DNA of 54,351 nt, taken from NCBI GenBank assembly GCA_028285085.1, contig JANQQI010000117.1, positions 1-54,351 of the forward strand, in the 5' to 3' direction. The stretch's first letter is position 1, and every line of letters begins with the position of its first letter. The notes under the pieces were generated by a model. The model saw nothing but the letters and a program-made list of their open reading frames with translations. It was not told the origin of the DNA and did not search any database. The position numbers and the translations under genes are program-made. Below are positions 23,843-51,100 of the stretch, in pieces. This DNA comes from Saprospiraceae bacterium. GTDB lineage: Bacteria; Bacteroidota; Bacteroidia; Chitinophagales; Saprospiraceae.

Positions 23843-23879
23843 AATTGCCCAAAAGCACTGCTGTGACTTTTGGGCAATT
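23843..23879. terminator. Long perfect hairpin between convergent genes
   Basis: AATTGCCCAAAAG (23843-23855) and CTTTTGGGCAATT (23867-23879) are a perfect 13-bp inverted repeat, extended inside by CAC/GTG. It lies between the ATPase and the DUF1573-coding end of the OmpA operon and could stop transcription from both sides, although neither side has a long T-run. Confidence 0.7.
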
Positions 23880-23898: not shown

Positions 23899-24276
23899 TT
23901 ATTCGTATACTATAGCCCGATATTTTAACTCTAAGAGTACAGGATAACCCGTTTTTGGATCGGTATGATCTAGTAAGATATCGATCGTCTTTTCTACATC
24001 ACCATCTTCCGACTCACTTTTGAACGTCACTTTAATTTCACCGCTTTGCCCCGGTTTGAATGTCTTGTATTCTGGCCAATCCAGATCAGAACATTCACAG
24101 CCCGAAACCAACTCGAAGCGTAGATTCTCGTCGCCGGTATTGGTAAAAGGATAAACGTGGGTTACCTTATTTCCTTTTTTTACGCGACCGAAATCATGGT
24201 ATTCGTGATCAAAAGTAACGACCGGACCTCTTTTGGCTGCCGGCTGCTTAGAGCTAGAACTACTACTTTTTAGTTC
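23899..24276 (-). CDS. DUF1573 domain in the -1 frame behind the OmpA gene, without its own start codon
   Basis: From 24276 down to the TAA at 23899 the minus strand encodes 125 residues in the -1 frame relative to the OmpA gene. After a Ser-rich linker (ELKSSSSSSKQPAAKRG) comes a complete DUF1573 fold: VVTFDHEYHDFGRVKKGNK, then FTNTGDENLRFELVSGCEC, WPEYKTFKPGQSGEIKVTFK and a final LLELKYRAIVYE. DUF1573 is an Ig-like domain usually found in exported Bacteroidota proteins and starting behind a signal peptide. Here no ATG or GTG exists in frame; the only TTG (24109-24111) would cut the domain in half. The domain can thus be made only by -1 slippage on the A-run at the end of the OmpA gene, or the sequence has lost one base in that run. 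Either way OmpA-DUF1573 is the likely full protein (~796 residues). Confidence 0.75.
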   Translation of the reverse strand, partial: ELKSSSSSSKQPAAKRGPVVTFDHEYHDFGRVKKGNKVTHVYPFTNTGDENLRFELVSGCECSDLDWPEYKTFKPGQSGEIKVTFKSESEDGDVEKTIDILLDHTDPKTGYPVLLELKYRAIVYE

Positions 24277-26288
24277 TTTTTTTTTAAGCGTGTCTTCTCG
24301 ATTTGGATGCTCGTTGGTCCAGCAACAATCTTGAACTCAGTACGACGATTATACTTGTGTTCTTCGTCCTCACACTTCACACCATTTACACAGCGGTTTC
24401 GAATCTGCGATTCACCGTAACCTACCGCCTGAATACGCTCAGCCGTAACACCGCGATCTACCAACCATTGCTTGGCGGATTCCGCACGACGCTGAGACAG
24501 CTTACGGTTATAACCAGAGGTACCTCGTGAATCCGTGTGAGAGGACAGTTCAATAACCATATCAGTATACTTATTCATCAACTCCAATACCACACTAAGA
24601 TCAGGCTCCGCTTCAGATAGAATCTCTGCACTTTCGAATTCGTAGAAGATATTCTCCAATTCGATGGGTTCGTCGATGGTGTATGTTTCAAACTCTGGTT
24701 CTGGCTCAGGTACTGGATTCAGCTTCAAAGATTTTTCGATGGTCAATGAAGTTTCAATTCCCGTTGTTTCAAAAGTCAAAGAATCCGGGAAGTAACCTTC
24801 CGCGCGAGCGATGATCTTATACTTAATATCGCGCTGCAGTGAGAACGAAAAGGCATTAGACGTTGCTTTGGTAGACACCTCTTTATCCGCAGGGACACCA
24901 TCAATAATTGGTTGCAGTTCGACAGTTGCGCCGTTCAGTGGATCTTTGCCGGTAAAAGTCGTTGCTAACAATTGCACCACCACTTTTTCTTTATTCACCG
25001 ACCAGATATCATTACAGCAGGTCTTACCGTGAGCAGAACGGGTTCCCGGGCGATTAGACACCAAAAATCCGTTATAACCTTCCTCATCGATTGAGAAAAA
25101 TAAATCATCGGCACTGGAATTATAACCTTTACCCATGTTAGTTGGGGCTTCCCAAGTCTTACCATTCCAAGCGGAAGAAAAAATATCAAAGCCACCGATA
25201 CCAGGATGTCCGTCGGAGCTGAAGTACAACGTACCATCGCGGTAGTATGGGGTCTCTTCATCACGGTTCGTGTTAATCACTTCACCGAGGTTTACTGGTG
25301 GAGCGTAAGTATCACCGGTACGGGTGCAGTAGTAGATATCAAATCCACCGTAACCACCTTCCATATCAGAAACGATAAAGAGTACTTCCTTACCAAACAA
25401 TTCTCCAACTGCGGGCTGCTTCACCAAGTAGTCACCATTGACACCTTGTACTTCATTGGCAGCCCCCCAGCTATTGCCATCACGCTTACTCATGAAGAGT
25501 TTACTCTCTGACATTTGGTTGGCATCTAGCAACACACGAGTAAAGAACATATACTGCCCGTCGGATGTAATCGTCAAATTTGCGGTATGGTAGCCTTCAC
25601 GATTAATGTTTGTACCGAGAGCCGATGGCTTACCCCAGCCTTTTTTCCCTTTGCGAGAGATAAAAGCTTTGGAGTGAAAATCTTCCTTGGCATCTTCGAT
25701 GACGATAACTTCATCAGATTGAATTGCAGTGAAGTACATTTCATCTTCTGCGTAAAGGATCGGCGAATATTCGGAATATTTTGAATTTACTTTTTTACCC
25801 AAATTCTCGACATTAAGCCCGGGGACTGGGTCCATCTCACGGCCCATCTCACAACCAGCCAATTCGATACGAGCCAGAGCGATACGAGCAGGATCTTCTG
25901 CCTCACTAATGTACAATTGGAATTCAGACATGGCCTCACCGTAGTTGCCGTTCATTTTAAGCATACGCGCATATTCAAAACGCGCTTCCGGCATATAGGG
26001 GTTAGGTTTTTTGCGAGAACGTTTGTTGACAATTCGCTTGAACCAGCGCTCTGCTTTGTTGTAATCGCGCAATTGCAGGTGCATATTGGCAATTTTGAAA
26101 GCGATGTCCAGATCGCGATTTTCCTCGTAATAATCAGCGTAGCGTTCCAGTGCATTGTAGTAGTCCAGGTTGGCTTCCGCTTCTTTGGCCGCTTCCAGTG
26201 TAGCATCCGCTGTAGCCTTATTGATCGGCTGTGCCTGCAGGCTGGCAACGGTGACGAAAGCGATTAAAAGGAGAAATATATTTTTCAT
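24270..26288 (-). CDS. OmpA-family protein with TPR, PD40 and carboxypeptidase-regulatory-like domains
   Basis: 672 residues in the zero frame. A signal peptide (FLLLIAFVTVASLQAQP) is followed by TPR-like helices (~20-130), a WD40-like PD40 propeller (~190-420, with repeats such as TPYYRDGTLYFSSDGHPGIGG), a carboxypeptidase-regulatory-like beta domain (~430-520) and an OmpA peptidoglycan-binding domain (~545-660: ELSSHTDSRGTSGYNRKLSQ, RRAESAKQW, YNRRTEFKIV). This is the layout of PorE/SprD-type OmpA proteins that accompany type IX secretion genes and hold outer-membrane parts to the cell wall. The PorP/SprF-like gene ends 49 bases upstream, so the two are very likely cotranscribed. The reading frame ends just after a nine-A run, and the DUF1573 domain follows in the -1 frame. 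Confidence 0.93.
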   Translation of the reverse strand: MKNIFLLLIAFVTVASLQAQPINKATADATLEAAKEAEANLDYYNALERYADYYEENRDLDIAFKIANMHLQLRDYNKAERWFKRIVNKRSRKKPNPYMPEARFEYARMLKMNGNYGEAMSEFQLYISEAEDPARIALARIELAGCEMGREMDPVPGLNVENLGKKVNSKYSEYSPILYAEDEMYFTAIQSDEVIVIEDAKEDFHSKAFISRKGKKGWGKPSALGTNINREGYHTANLTITSDGQYMFFTRVLLDANQMSESKLFMSKRDGNSWGAANEVQGVNGDYLVKQPAVGELFGKEVLFIVSDMEGGYGGFDIYYCTRTGDTYAPPVNLGEVINTNRDEETPYYRDGTLYFSSDGHPGIGGFDIFSSAWNGKTWEAPTNMGKGYNSSADDLFFSIDEEGYNGFLVSNRPGTRSAHGKTCCNDIWSVNKEKVVVQLLATTFTGKDPLNGATVELQPIIDGVPADKEVSTKATSNAFSFSLQRDIKYKIIARAEGYFPDSLTFETTGIETSLTIEKSLKLNPVPEPEPEFETYTIDEPIELENIFYEFESAEILSEAEPDLSVVLELMNKYTDMVIELSSHTDSRGTSGYNRKLSQRRAESAKQWLVDRGVTAERIQAVGYGESQIRNRCVNGVKCEDEEHKYNRRTEFKIVAGPTSIQIEKTRLKKKN
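24276..24282 (-). promoter_or_regulatory. A AAA AAG slippery heptamer (candidate programmed -1 frameshift site)
   Basis: The minus strand has nine A followed by G (T-run 24277-24285 on plus). In the OmpA frame the last codons read TTA AAA AAA AAG AAC TAA, so the heptamer A AAA AAG is in the phase used by E. coli dnaX. Slipping back one base leads into the DUF1573 frame. An AGAACTA/TAGTTCT inverted repeat follows directly on the A-run, closer than the usual 5-9 base spacer of a stimulatory hairpin. Confidence 0.6.
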
Positions 26289-26337: not shown

Positions 26338-27348
26338 CTAGAATCGTGGGCAGAAGATAACCGGCTTGATCGTCGGCTTCTTAAAGATTTTAGCAATGTA
26401 CCATACCGCGATTTCAAAACCACCTTGATTGTTATTAGCCGAAGACAAGTCAGAAACGGTCAGGTCGTACGCCGCAGCTACTTTGAATTGCTTATAATCT
26501 ACACCGATGAGGAAATTAACTGCATCACCCAGACGATAACCAGGACCAAAGTTCAAGCGGAAATCCGGGTTAAGTTGGTAACCTAACCAACCTTGAATAT
26601 CAAACTCATTGGCGCTCGCCATATTATTAATGATGAATGTTGGCGACAAGCTCCACTTATCGGTCAGCATCGTATTGAAAGTACCGTGAGCAGTAATACG
26701 CATCGGCAGATCCTCTTGTGCGTTGTTGATCAACCCATATTCAGGTGTCAGGATGTGACGCAGAGCGACACCAATTTTAAGATCTGAAGTCTTATTGAGT
26801 TGAGTCGATAGCTGTACACCTGCATTGAAGTCAAAGAAGTTTGTAGACTCTCCGATCTTTTGTCGATCGGGGCTTTCACCGGTCATATAGGTTCCATCCA
26901 ACTCAGAACCAAGCGTCAATTCCATGCCATCAATCTTTCGTTGCATCATCCCTCCTTGTAGACCAAAGGTCAGGACCGAAGTTCCTTTTTTATTCATAGC
27001 GAGGTGATAAGCTGCAGAAAATAAGGTTCCGGTGTATCCCAGATCACCTGTACCAGCCTTATCACTAAAAAAAGTAGCGCCTACGCCGATCCAGTCGTTT
27101 TTACGAAAACCACGGATGATGGGGGCATCGACATAAAAAGAAGGGGTTCGAAAACCGTTGATGCCAGCTACATTATATTGATCTCGGTAGATTCCACCAA
27201 TGCGAAACGTCCCTTCGAAGGCACCTGTATTGGCCGGATTGATCGTCAATGGAGACATGTTGAATAAGGACCAGTGGATATCTTGAGCCACCATTTGCCC
27301 GGCTAGAAAAAGTGCACAAAATAAAAGTAGAGATTTCACCAATTTCAT
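26338..27348 (-). CDS. PorP/SprF-family type IX secretion system outer-membrane protein
   Basis: 336 residues from the ATG at 27348. After the signal peptide (LLLFCALFLAGQMVAQ) the mature part begins DIHWSLFNMSPLTINPANTGAF, the classic PorP/SprF opening (YNPAxxG type), then strands such as FRIGGIYRDQYNVAG. The C-terminal region has GVDYKQFKVAAAYDLTVSDL. Members help export and attach CHU_C (type B) substrates; SprF of Flavobacterium is required for SprB. The CHU_C protein gene lies directly upstream (168 bases) and the OmpA gene directly downstream, forming a substrate-translocator-anchor cassette. Confidence 0.92.
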   Translation of the reverse strand: MKLVKSLLLFCALFLAGQMVAQDIHWSLFNMSPLTINPANTGAFEGTFRIGGIYRDQYNVAGINGFRTPSFYVDAPIIRGFRKNDWIGVGATFFSDKAGTGDLGYTGTLFSAAYHLAMNKKGTSVLTFGLQGGMMQRKIDGMELTLGSELDGTYMTGESPDRQKIGESTNFFDFNAGVQLSTQLNKTSDLKIGVALRHILTPEYGLINNAQEDLPMRITAHGTFNTMLTDKWSLSPTFIINNMASANEFDIQGWLGYQLNPDFRLNFGPGYRLGDAVNFLIGVDYKQFKVAAAYDLTVSDLSSANNNQGGFEIAVWYIAKIFKKPTIKPVIFCPRF

Positions 27349-27516
27349 AAACAAGTTTTTAGGTGTATTTCTGAAAAGCGGTTTTTATTAGTTTTTAGGA
27401 AACCGAAATATAGGCTTTTTTATGAATAATATATTGCAAGTTATACGTTAAACTTTGCTCCTTGGGCCCTCGAAGAGCCGGAATAATAACGGACATCCGA
27501 CAAAAAGGGATTTATC

Positions 27517-29847
27517 CTATCGCACCAAAGTGACGTCCCCACTGAGTTGTTGATCCGAGAGACCATCATTGTAAGTGAGCAGCCAAACGTAGACCCCATC
27601 GTTGGCAACCTGGCCTTTAAAGATGCCGTCCCAGCCTAATTCTGGGTCGTTAGTTGAGAACACTTCGGCGCCCCAACGATCAAATATTTGTAGCCGGAAA
27701 TCCAAGATCGGACAATTAAAGTACGTCAAAAAGTAATCATTATTGCCATCAAAGTTTGGCGTAAAAGCATTGGGCACGTAGACTTCACAGCAGCTAATCA
27801 ACTCCAGACGAACTTCATCTGTCACCTCCGTACAGCCATCGGTCACCGTCAAAGCGTACTGCCCGGTGGTATAAATCGTGCGCTCCGGTTGGGTAGAACC
27901 ATTTTCCCAGAGGTAGGCCACCGGAAAAAATTGCTCGCCGTCCAGCACCACAGAATCGCCAAAGCAAAAGGTCGTATCAGGTCCTAAATCCAGGGTTAAG
28001 ACTTGGTCAAGAATATCAACGCTAATGCTTTCTGAATAGTCACCACAAGGTAAAGTGACGGTCACAGCATAGTCGCCGATCGCATCTATCGTTCTGATGG
28101 GTTCTTCGAGGCCATCATTCCATAAATAGCCCAATGCATCTGGCAATGTCGCGTCCAAGCTCAGGCTATCACCCGCACAGAGCAGAGTATCAGCGGGGAG
28201 TAAATTAATCGTTGTCGTATCAAAGTAGTTAACCTGGATTTCGTCCGTAAGCAAGCCACAATCGACCGTCACACTCACGGCAAAGAGGCCTCCGGGATTG
28301 GTGACCGTGTAAATGGGTTCATCGGAATCATCCTGCCAGCTGTAGGCCGTTGCACCGGGAATCGTCGCATCAAGTAAGAGGCTCTGTCCGGGGCAAAGCG
28401 TCGTGTCGGGTCCTAAATCCAGGGGCGCCGGAGGCGCTTCAAAGGTGACAAAAATATCGTCGATGCTTTCATTATCGCAATCATCCGTAATGGTTACCGA
28501 GTAGAGACCGGTTTCGGTAACCTCTAAGGTTGATTCCGTGGAATTATCTTGCCAAAGGTAGGCTGTGGCCCAGTCTTGGGTAGCATCAAGTACCAGTGTT
28601 TCTCCTTCACAAAGGGTGACATCCGGCCCTAAATCGAAGTTGTAATCTATTGGCCCTACAATTGTGACGTAAGCCACCGCAATGTCACTTACATCTCCAT
28701 CACTAGCAAAAAGTTGTACCTCAATTTGACGTTCTCCGGGTGTAAAAGGATTTGCGGTATTATCGTAAATGATATTCATCAAGGCCGTTTCCAAATCCGC
28801 GGCCGTAGTACTTCCATTATTAATAATTGTGATTTGCGTTGTCCCTTGTCCTTCGACGATAAAAGGACCGATATCGCCTAGGTAATCTAATTGCTCGGCG
28901 GTACCATCTTGTATGCCTCCAGTTAAAGTAATCACGACTGAATCGAATGGCCCTTCTATATACACTTCTACGTCTTCATCGGCAATAAAACTCATGTTCT
29001 CACCACAGGGATGAACGACCTGATAATCAAGTCCCAGAGCTCCAGTACTATTATCACCATCCAGATCAATAATATAATCACAATCAGCCGCCAGGAAATC
29101 TGTATCCATCGTAGCGCCAAAGATAAAACCATTGATTAGTTCACATTCAAAGGTGGCATTAGCATTACTTACATCTACTTGATAAATACTTCCATTGGCA
29201 AAGCCATAAGTTTCAGTATCCCCACAATTAGTGGAATAGGTGACCACGCCAAAAAAGAAGCCAAAGTCAATACTTTGCATGGTGCCAACAACCGTACTCG
29301 CCGATGGATTATCAATATTGACCAGTAGTAAATCATTATTACTACAAGCCAGATATAATTCGCCACCATTAAAAGCTAAATCTCCACCCGAAAGGCAAGG
29401 CAAAAAGTCTCCAATTTGTATGGTAACACCAGTATTCACATCGATTTCAAATAAAAAACTACCAGCCATGTACATCGTACCATCTGCGGCGGACACCAAA
29501 GCATTTACCCCAATTGCCTGGCCCACAAGCGGGGCAATAAGTGTCCCTTCCAAGGTATTTAAATCCACAACGTAGAAAGCCGTTCCATCAATCGCATAAA
29601 GATTGCCATTGGGATGAAAGGCAAGATCACTAGCGATTAAAGGTGCAGAGTTACTCCCCGTCCACATGTTCCCTAAAAATTCGACATTACAGTCTGGATC
29701 ATTGGGATCAGATCTATATAGCAGACCGGCTTCATCAGAAAAGTAGATAAACTGTGCTTGTAGGGATATTGCTCCAAACAAGAAAAAGAATAGACAAAAA
29801 ACAACAGGCCAATATCGGCTCGATGGATGTATTGTAGAATAGTTCAT
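27517..29847 (-). CDS. Large secreted protein with four Ig-like repeats and CHU_C (T9SS type B) sorting domain
   Basis: 776 residues. A signal peptide (WPVVFCLFFFLFGAISLQAQ) is followed by a propeller-like part (~35-260). Around 400-680 there are four repeats of about 65-70 residues, each opening with a form of DLGPDTTLCPGQSLLLDAT and containing a YLWQDNS/YSWQDDS core; the second PLDLGPDTTLCP and the fourth LDLGPDTTFCFG are nearly the same. The C-terminal domain is CHU_C: EVYVPNAFTPNFDGNNDYF, FDRWGAEVFSTNDPELGW, GDVTLVR. The CHU_C gene at 1998 has the same last domain. It is probably the substrate of the PorP/SprF-like protein next to it and may act as an adhesin. Confidence 0.92.
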   Translation of the reverse strand: MNYSTIHPSSRYWPVVFCLFFFLFGAISLQAQFIYFSDEAGLLYRSDPNDPDCNVEFLGNMWTGSNSAPLIASDLAFHPNGNLYAIDGTAFYVVDLNTLEGTLIAPLVGQAIGVNALVSAADGTMYMAGSFLFEIDVNTGVTIQIGDFLPCLSGGDLAFNGGELYLACSNNDLLLVNIDNPSASTVVGTMQSIDFGFFFGVVTYSTNCGDTETYGFANGSIYQVDVSNANATFECELINGFIFGATMDTDFLAADCDYIIDLDGDNSTGALGLDYQVVHPCGENMSFIADEDVEVYIEGPFDSVVITLTGGIQDGTAEQLDYLGDIGPFIVEGQGTTQITIINNGSTTAADLETALMNIIYDNTANPFTPGERQIEVQLFASDGDVSDIAVAYVTIVGPIDYNFDLGPDVTLCEGETLVLDATQDWATAYLWQDNSTESTLEVTETGLYSVTITDDCDNESIDDIFVTFEAPPAPLDLGPDTTLCPGQSLLLDATIPGATAYSWQDDSDEPIYTVTNPGGLFAVSVTVDCGLLTDEIQVNYFDTTTINLLPADTLLCAGDSLSLDATLPDALGYLWNDGLEEPIRTIDAIGDYAVTVTLPCGDYSESISVDILDQVLTLDLGPDTTFCFGDSVVLDGEQFFPVAYLWENGSTQPERTIYTTGQYALTVTDGCTEVTDEVRLELISCCEVYVPNAFTPNFDGNNDYFLTYFNCPILDFRLQIFDRWGAEVFSTNDPELGWDGIFKGQVANDGVYVWLLTYNDGLSDQQLSGDVTLVR

Positions 29848-50143: not shown

Positions 50144-51100
50144 ATGGATCATATGGACTTGACTGAATGTAAGAGAACCATTGCAGAAGGTGAATTAGGA
50201 CAAGTGATTGATTTCTTATTTGAGAAGATTAACAATCTAAATAAGGGATCACAAAAAAAAAGAATAGAACCTTTAGAAAAAAGTTTAATTGCTACGTCTT
50301 ACCTGTACAAAGATTCTTTAAAATCATATCGGAACCAATTCATAAGCGCTGAAGAGCTTAGGACAATAATAAGTAAGATATGCTTCACCCTTACTGACAT
50401 AATAAATGATTTGATTAAATTTTCCGAAGAGAAGAAAGAATCTAAGAATGTAAAAAGTGACATTGAAAACTTTCCCCCAAATGGAATTAACATAGATCAT
50501 TTAAACTTACCCCAACATCCTAAGACTGAATATTCTTATTACAAGAATACTCATCCTGATTTAGTTGACATTTTCCACAAAGATCAAGACAAATCACAGT
50601 CTATAACACCTTTGTACAATTCAGAAAACCTTAATAGTGGAATAGCATATTATTCAAGCTTAAAAAAAATAAGAAGAAACACGATCAGTAAGCCTCAACA
50701 AGAATTTGACAACTTATCGTTCGCAAAAAACGATTATAGTCGACTTAATTTAAAAGTGGATAATAGCTCAATCCTTAACTCACAAAATAGCCATTCTTAT
50801 TCCAATCCTATAAAAACGCACGAAAGAGAAAAGCTCAACCAATATTTAGACCCTATTTATCAAGGTAAACCTACTTACAAAAACATTGATAGAGATTACA
50901 TAAATAATAGCAATAATAAAATACAAAAAAAGAATAATATTGGTGTAATGATTATTGGAATAACCATTGCTAGCTTCATAGGAATTCTATTAATATTTTC
51001 ATTTGAATCCATCTATAACAACATTAATAACATACTAGTAATATCAATATTAATTATAGTTAGCTATTTCTTATTTTTTTCAAAAGTATTTAGGTTCTAG
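50144..51100 (+). CDS. Effector-associated domain 11-like protein with C-terminal two-helix membrane anchor
   Basis: 318 residues. Residues ~5-95 match the pattern of Effector-associated domain 11: helix 1 with TIAEGELGQVIDFLFEKINN, a helix with LEKSLIATSYLYKDSLKSYR, then FISAEELRTIISKICFTLTD and IINDLIKF. In that family the typical sequence is (I/L)AxGxLxxAlxlL, then LLSxRYNxL, then G.IS.ee...ElnrI...Ll.li. Residues ~100-260 are Ser/Asn/Lys-rich and probably disordered. Two membrane helices lie at ~266-286 and ~295-313. EADs connect effectors to STAND, caspase and other sensor modules in bacterial conflict systems; here the effector end would be a membrane-piercing hairpin. Neighbours are housekeeping genes. 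G+C is very low: 17 of 60 bases at 50941-51000 against 34 of 60 at 49081-49140 in hutU. Confidence 0.72.
   Translation: MDHMDLTECKRTIAEGELGQVIDFLFEKINNLNKGSQKKRIEPLEKSLIATSYLYKDSLKSYRNQFISAEELRTIISKICFTLTDIINDLIKFSEEKKESKNVKSDIENFPPNGINIDHLNLPQHPKTEYSYYKNTHPDLVDIFHKDQDKSQSITPLYNSENLNSGIAYYSSLKKIRRNTISKPQQEFDNLSFAKNDYSRLNLKVDNSSILNSQNSHSYSNPIKTHEREKLNQYLDPIYQGKPTYKNIDRDYINNSNNKIQKKNNIGVMIIGITIASFIGILLIFSFESIYNNINNILVISILIIVSYFLFFSKVFRF

Follow-up and report, generated by a model that had tools for sequence, protein, structure and literature searches.

In a Saprospiraceae bacterium, a gene for a protein with an OmpA domain stops just past a run of nine A residues, and a DUF1573 domain follows in the -1 frame. 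The question raised by this locus is whether such an arrangement reflects a sequencing error, two genes, or one gene from which two proteins are made. The locus lies on contig JANQQI010000117.1, of which positions 1 to 54,351 were analysed; this whole stretch of 54,351 nucleotides is referred to as the window. As described below, comparison with relatives makes it likely that this A9 run, with which a gene for a PorE-like cell-wall anchor ends, functions as a slippage site.

On the minus strand, the junction reads ...ACA CGC TTA AAA AAA AAG AAC TAA, and the short product of the PorE-like gene ends two codons past the run (Table 1). The -1 frame is open from stop to stop over 23899-24336. The initial annotation had described an OmpA frame ending in A9, followed in the -1 frame by a complete, start-less DUF1573 domain reaching 23899, and the sequence, the open reading frames and the PF07610 match (E 7e-20; 71.3 bits against a Pfam gathering cut-off of 26.1; domain complete) bear this out. 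Its statement that no ATG or GTG precedes the domain, and that a TTG cuts into it, also holds: between the preceding stop codon and the 20th codon of DUF1573, the -1 frame has no ATG, GTG or TTG, and the first start listed, a TTG at 24111, would cut the domain. In the AlphaFold2 model the DUF1573 domain has a mean pLDDT of 95.3 and is predicted as an intact fold; its structural neighbours in the PDB are the HYDIN PapD-like domains. A strong hairpin is located just behind the DUF1573 stop, and the transcript therefore probably runs through DUF1573, which would place the domain on the same transcript as the PorE-like gene. A consensus scan did not list this hairpin.

Table 1. Features of the PorE-like/DUF1573 locus and its neighbours in the window
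Feature	Position	Strand	Basis
T9SS type B CTD cargo protein	27517..29847	(-)	TIGR04131 46.2 bits, cut-off 35
PorP/SprF-family gene, directly upstream of the PorE-like gene	26338..27354	(-)	TIGR03519 171.5 bits, cut-off 90.55
PorE-like gene: Sec signal, TPR, weak PD40 propeller, OmpA peptidoglycan-binding domain	24270..26288	(-)	ORF and profile matches
Putative A9 slippage run, TTA AAA AAA AAG AAC TAA	24277..24285	(-)	Sequence; same position in three congeners (A9, A11, A9)
TAA ending the short product	24270-24272	(-)	ORF
Ser-rich linker, read in the -1 frame after a slip	24220..24276	(-)	Translation
DUF1573 (PapD-like Ig) domain, -1 frame, without its own start or signal	23959..24219	(-)	PF07610, residues 40-126 of a 145-residue open stretch
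TAA ending the putative long product	23899..23901	(-)	Sequence
Strong terminator-like hairpin just 3' of the DUF1573 stop	23843..23879	(-)	Fold z -5.73; 0/200 shuffles as stable

A run of nine A somewhere in the window is unsurprising, because base composition alone predicts 4.6 matches over both strands in dinucleotide shuffles, and two are observed. What goes beyond chance is the place of the run, not its presence. The only other A9 (50253-50261) lies inside an ORF on the plus strand (50144-51100), whose frame stays open past the run; it is possibly a second slippage site or a chance run.

The genes on the minus strand are transcribed in the order type B CTD protein, PorP/SprF and PorE-like protein, in agreement with the earlier description of a T9SS-associated cassette. 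In Porphyromonas gingivalis, PorE attaches to peptidoglycan via its OmpA domain and also to PorP, and PorP in turn holds a type B CTD protein (PMC9143113). The same three kinds of gene stand in a row here, and the architecture of the PorE family (TPR, propeller, OmpA and an adjoining PorP) is found, with a strong OmpA match (PF00691, E 1.2e-15) and weak TPR and PD40 matches. The NCBIfam models for PorE (NF052230; E 5.1e-90, 302.6 bits, cut-off 600) and CHU_0125 (NF053607; E 7.5e-99) both cover nearly the whole length of the protein. Since both scores are below the cut-offs, the protein is called PorE-like and not PorE. It differs from the PorE complex also in the out-of-frame DUF1573 and in the N-terminus, MKNIFLLLIAFVTVASLQAQP, which on direct reading has no lipoprotein Cys. 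PorP is upstream in seven of the eight related loci tested, including three of three with the out-of-frame arrangement; the sole miss is L170.

In a first search of 59 related genomes, many members of the same GTDB family had a single frame of about 800-900 codons for both OmpA and DUF1573, and in all three congeners found the frames of the two domains differed. When 398 genomes of the family were searched by profile, at least 144 had listed matches, and 80 of the other 254 were searched again; 39 of the 56 non-fused rows picked from it were fetched, while most fused rows were left unfetched. In a further scan of genomes, the best 80 of 583 matches were taken; 40 of them lacked a DUF1573 within 1.2 kb, in some cases because the contig ended there. 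A locus was defined by a DUF1573 following the OmpA domain within 1.2 kb. Where several loci had an identical DUF1573 stretch, only one entered the count, and weak matches (<70 and <60 bits) were excluded.

Among the matches listed and fetched, at least 105 distinct loci were obtained, which fall into three states. DUF1573 is fused to the anchor in one open frame in 67 loci, forms a separate ORF with its own Sec or lipoprotein signal in 18, and is out of frame and without an export signal in 20, referred to as slip loci. The separate ORF of L136 was classed as signal-bearing by eye, the scripted rule having missed it. The initial annotation had held that relatives in which DUF1573 has its own start codon and signal peptide would speak against a slip. 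Such genes do occur, in the 18 loci mentioned, but they make up a distinct state and are seen in none of the 20 slip loci. It should be added that in L098 and L147 the PorE-like gene is followed by two tandem DUF1573 genes, both of which carry a signal of their own.

In the overlap, each of the 20 slip loci has a homopolymer 9-11 bases long, which consists of A in 19 loci and of T in one. The run is A9 in four (L001, L006, L008 and L104), A10 in 13 (L019, L029, L038, L057, L064, L065, L086, L099, L102, L109, L137, L140 and L182) and A11 in two (L007 and L135). In L172, from a metagenome-assembled genome of the Chitinophagales, a T9 (2931-2939) is present in the same overlap, again in the -1 relation, and the short frame stops four codons on. 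The four species of the window's genus have runs of 9, 9, 11 and 9 A, all in the -1 relation, and other genera keep this relation with A9-A10. The comparison of homologues called for by the initial annotation thus finds both the run and the two separate frames kept in this genus. Its A AAA AAG heptamer is indeed present, in the phase of E. coli dnaX; the conserved feature is, however, the long run, and the base that follows is G, T or C among the relatives. The emphasis placed on a ribosomal heptamer of the dnaX type thus has less support than slippage on 9-11 bases.

Such runs are rare elsewhere. The longest A run in the linker is eight or fewer in 64 of the 67 fused loci, no fused linker (0/67) has seven or more T, and outside the linkers only one run of nine or more A occurs in 173,328 nt of coding sequence from the 105 related loci. 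The three fused exceptions (L009 and L148 of genus g13, and L170) have A9-10 in frame, and in each of them another frame stops at once or a few codons past the run; here the long and the short frame seem to have swapped roles. In L009 and L148, both the -1 and the +1 frames stop within a few codons of the run; the -1 stop occupies the same position in the two loci, but the codon differs. Genes with transcriptional slippage have about nine or more A or T at the frame junction, and this is also the case at the slip loci.

The placement of the stop codon gives further evidence. In 8 of 11 genera, every member sampled has the stop of the short frame at the first codon past the run (background 5.7%), and in 10 of 11 this stop lies within four codons (background 16%). 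The binomial P values, about 1e-8 and about 1e-7, respectively, are naive, as they treat genera as independent, which is not fully so; L170, L172 and L182 are left out of the 11-genus count. In three species of genus g1 the stop, TAA or TAG, is 3-4 codons past the run.

These observations bear directly on the rival offered by the initial annotation, namely that one A is missing from the sequenced run and the protein is simply a fusion. Undercalling of homopolymers would always shift the frame in the same direction, 64 of the 105 loci are plainly fused, and the slip loci L162, L172, L182 and L195 come from draft metagenome assemblies; none of the slip loci surveyed came from a near-complete assembly. 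However, four congeners are in the -1 relation in spite of runs that differ in length. A stop directly past the run is not what undercalling of a homopolymer in a fused gene would produce, so that its occurrence in 8 of 11 genera (about 6% expected) speaks against error. Moreover, with runs of eight or fewer in nearly all fused loci, errors would have to pick the rare long-run loci. On account of the congeners, the stop placement and the distribution of runs, assembly or sequencing error was rejected as very unlikely.

Another explanation is phase variation, in which slippage during replication would switch the fusion on and off within a population. Runs of 9-11 can mutate, their length differs among congeners, and the product is surface-associated; in addition, the run is in frame in three loci and in +1 in one. 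The latter, L135 (A11), is the only one of the 20 slip loci not in the -1 relation; of the same genus, g6, are also L104, in -1 with A9, and L149, which is fused and has no run. Switching should, however, distribute the frames nearly equally, whereas the run-bearing lineages are divided 12 in -1, 1 in +1 and 2 in frame (chi-square P 6e-4, with lineages counted as independent, which they are not fully). The stop just past the run is kept as well, with different stop codons. From the frame spread and the kept stop, phase variation was set aside as improbable.

DUF1573 might also be translated separately, by re-initiation or from an internal start, or might be a decaying remnant. Separate DUF1573 genes do exist in the 18 loci described, and an in-frame ATG or GTG is present in the linker of some slip loci (e.g. 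L019, L038, L064 and L065), where a separate, unexported DUF1573 is possible. This does not extend to the window, which has no such start codon before the domain, and the product would miss the export signal that the separate genes carry. Decay is opposed by the selection acting on the domain. The three pairs in genus g103 have dN/dS values of 0.03, 0.08 and 0.11 for the DUF1573 part; in the other three of the six slip pairs dS is saturated and amino-acid identity is 71-79%. These values indicate that DUF1573 is under purifying selection where this is measurable. The lack of a start in the window, the lack of an export signal and the purifying selection led to rejection of separate translation, which is given hardly any weight. 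An out-of-frame extension that is conserved and selected, as in slippage genes, is what the slip loci present.

The favoured reading is therefore that of a slippage site, and it may be outlined as follows. Read straight, the gene would give the short protein. Should an additional A be introduced as the run is copied or read, translation would continue in the -1 frame, and the linker and the Ig-like DUF1573 domain would be added to the anchor. DUF1573 would then be exported on the signal peptide of the anchor. The signal peptides of the separate homologues suggest that the domain needs export. As a result, the PorP/type B CTD complex would have two forms of peptidoglycan anchor, with and without DUF1573, in a ratio set by slippage. 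The frames, the run, the stop placement, conservation and selection together suggest that both proteins are probably made, and the proposal in the initial annotation of an OmpA and an OmpA-DUF1573 product from one mRNA gains support from the relatives.

If slippage occurs, the RNA polymerase slipping on A9-11 is its most likely agent, at rather better than even chances, and the ribosome takes the smaller, still considerable share; both may act. Bacterial polymerases slip on nine A or T, and nine A is the length at which avoidance starts in many bacteria and the one used by Thermus dnaX (PMC1088944 and PMC5009743). Slippage by polymerase is favoured because no run in the slip loci is shorter than nine, because the base after the run is not fixed, and because T9 can stand in for the A run. 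It is also favoured because L135 needs the other direction, which -1 slipping of the ribosome cannot serve, and because the in-frame exceptions of g13 (L009 and L148) and L170 keep the run. T9 and A9-11 also serve ribosomes.

Programmed -1 frameshifting by the ribosome would consist of a tandem slip of tRNA-Lys on A AAA AAA or A AAA AAG, aided by a downstream hairpin in some lineages. Every -1 locus with an A run contains an in-phase A_AAA_AAA or A_AAA_AAN, A AAA AAG stands in the zero frame of the window, and the predominance of -1 (19/20) fits this mechanism. In the GeneTack clusters, A_AAA_AAG and heptamers like it are the common sites (PMC3711429). Furthermore, the RNA past the run is more structured than background across the slip loci (Fisher P on lineage medians, 0.009 in 50-nt and 0.005 in 70-nt windows). 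Strong hairpins start about 9-14 nt past the run in L057, L064 and L109, with perfect stems of 17 bp in L057, 12 bp in L064 (g103) and 11 bp in L109 (g101), a few bases past the A10 run; they favour -1 frameshifting by the ribosome, at least in the lineages concerned. A strong hairpin just past the A10 run is also seen in L065 (g103), and between L057 and L064 the stem is kept although the sequence differs. A uniform stimulatory hairpin sought across the slip loci was nevertheless not found: structure is strong in g103 and g101 and inconsistent in the window's genus, where the ranks in 50-nt windows are 0.26, 0.04, 0.96 and 0.96. Against the ribosome there also stand the run length, as 6-7 A would do, the variable following base and the opposite direction needed in L135. 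An upstream Shine-Dalgarno stimulator is unlikely, because ribosomes of Bacteroidia do not use Shine-Dalgarno pairing (PMC6847099 and PMC9976891). Measured against all explanations and not slippage only, ribosomal frameshifting is rather unlikely, though less so than the three rivals rejected above.

The history of the three states was examined on a quick-method tree of the OmpA and DUF1573 domains with 74 rows, which leaves out two short rows as well as L170, L172 and L182. The 18 slip rows on it need 11 changes, at least six of which are forced by well-supported (starred) branches; the slip label is also more clustered than in 500 shuffles. Repeated passage between the separate, slip and fused states is suggested, because slip rows adjoin separate-gene rows in some clades and fused rows in others.

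In E. coli, dnaX undergoes a -1 ribosomal frameshift at A AAA AAG. The window has this heptamer in the same phase and, putatively, two products; it differs in the longer run, the lack of a consistent hairpin in its genus, a phylum without Shine-Dalgarno use, and a slip that makes the longer product. In the dnaX of Thermus thermophilus and in the Chlorobi-type dnaX (GeneTack, up to 10 A), the RNA polymerase slips, according to PMC1088944, PMC5009743 and PMC3711429. As in Thermus, a run of 9-10 A inside a gene would lead to two C-terminal forms. However, the standard frame gives the long product there and the short product at the window locus, and the gene in the window is unrelated, the putative slip adding a whole exported domain. 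The fused OmpA-DUF1573 proteins of Saprospiraceae share the order of domains, usually with PorP upstream, but have a single open frame and, in all except the three loci mentioned, short linker runs. A search of open-access PMC text, as distinct from subscription papers and supplements, returned no report of OmpA/DUF1573 slippage.

Only tentatively, at a little short of an even chance, it is proposed that RNA-polymerase slippage on a kept run of 9-11 bases gives two anchor forms across part of the Saprospiraceae, and that the domain pair has moved repeatedly among a separate exported protein, a slippage fusion and a permanent fusion. Slippage would then be both an encoded setter of the ratio and a bridge between two genes and one. 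To our knowledge, the conserved slippage genes are few, namely dnaX, insertion-sequence genes and some others. The closely related fused, slipping and separate versions would offer ready material for a comparative test of whether polymerase or ribosome slips in Bacteroidota. If slippage is true, gene callers overlook an exported domain of a secretion-associated anchor, and its occurrence throughout a lineage in an envelope protein would show how such sites arise and vanish.
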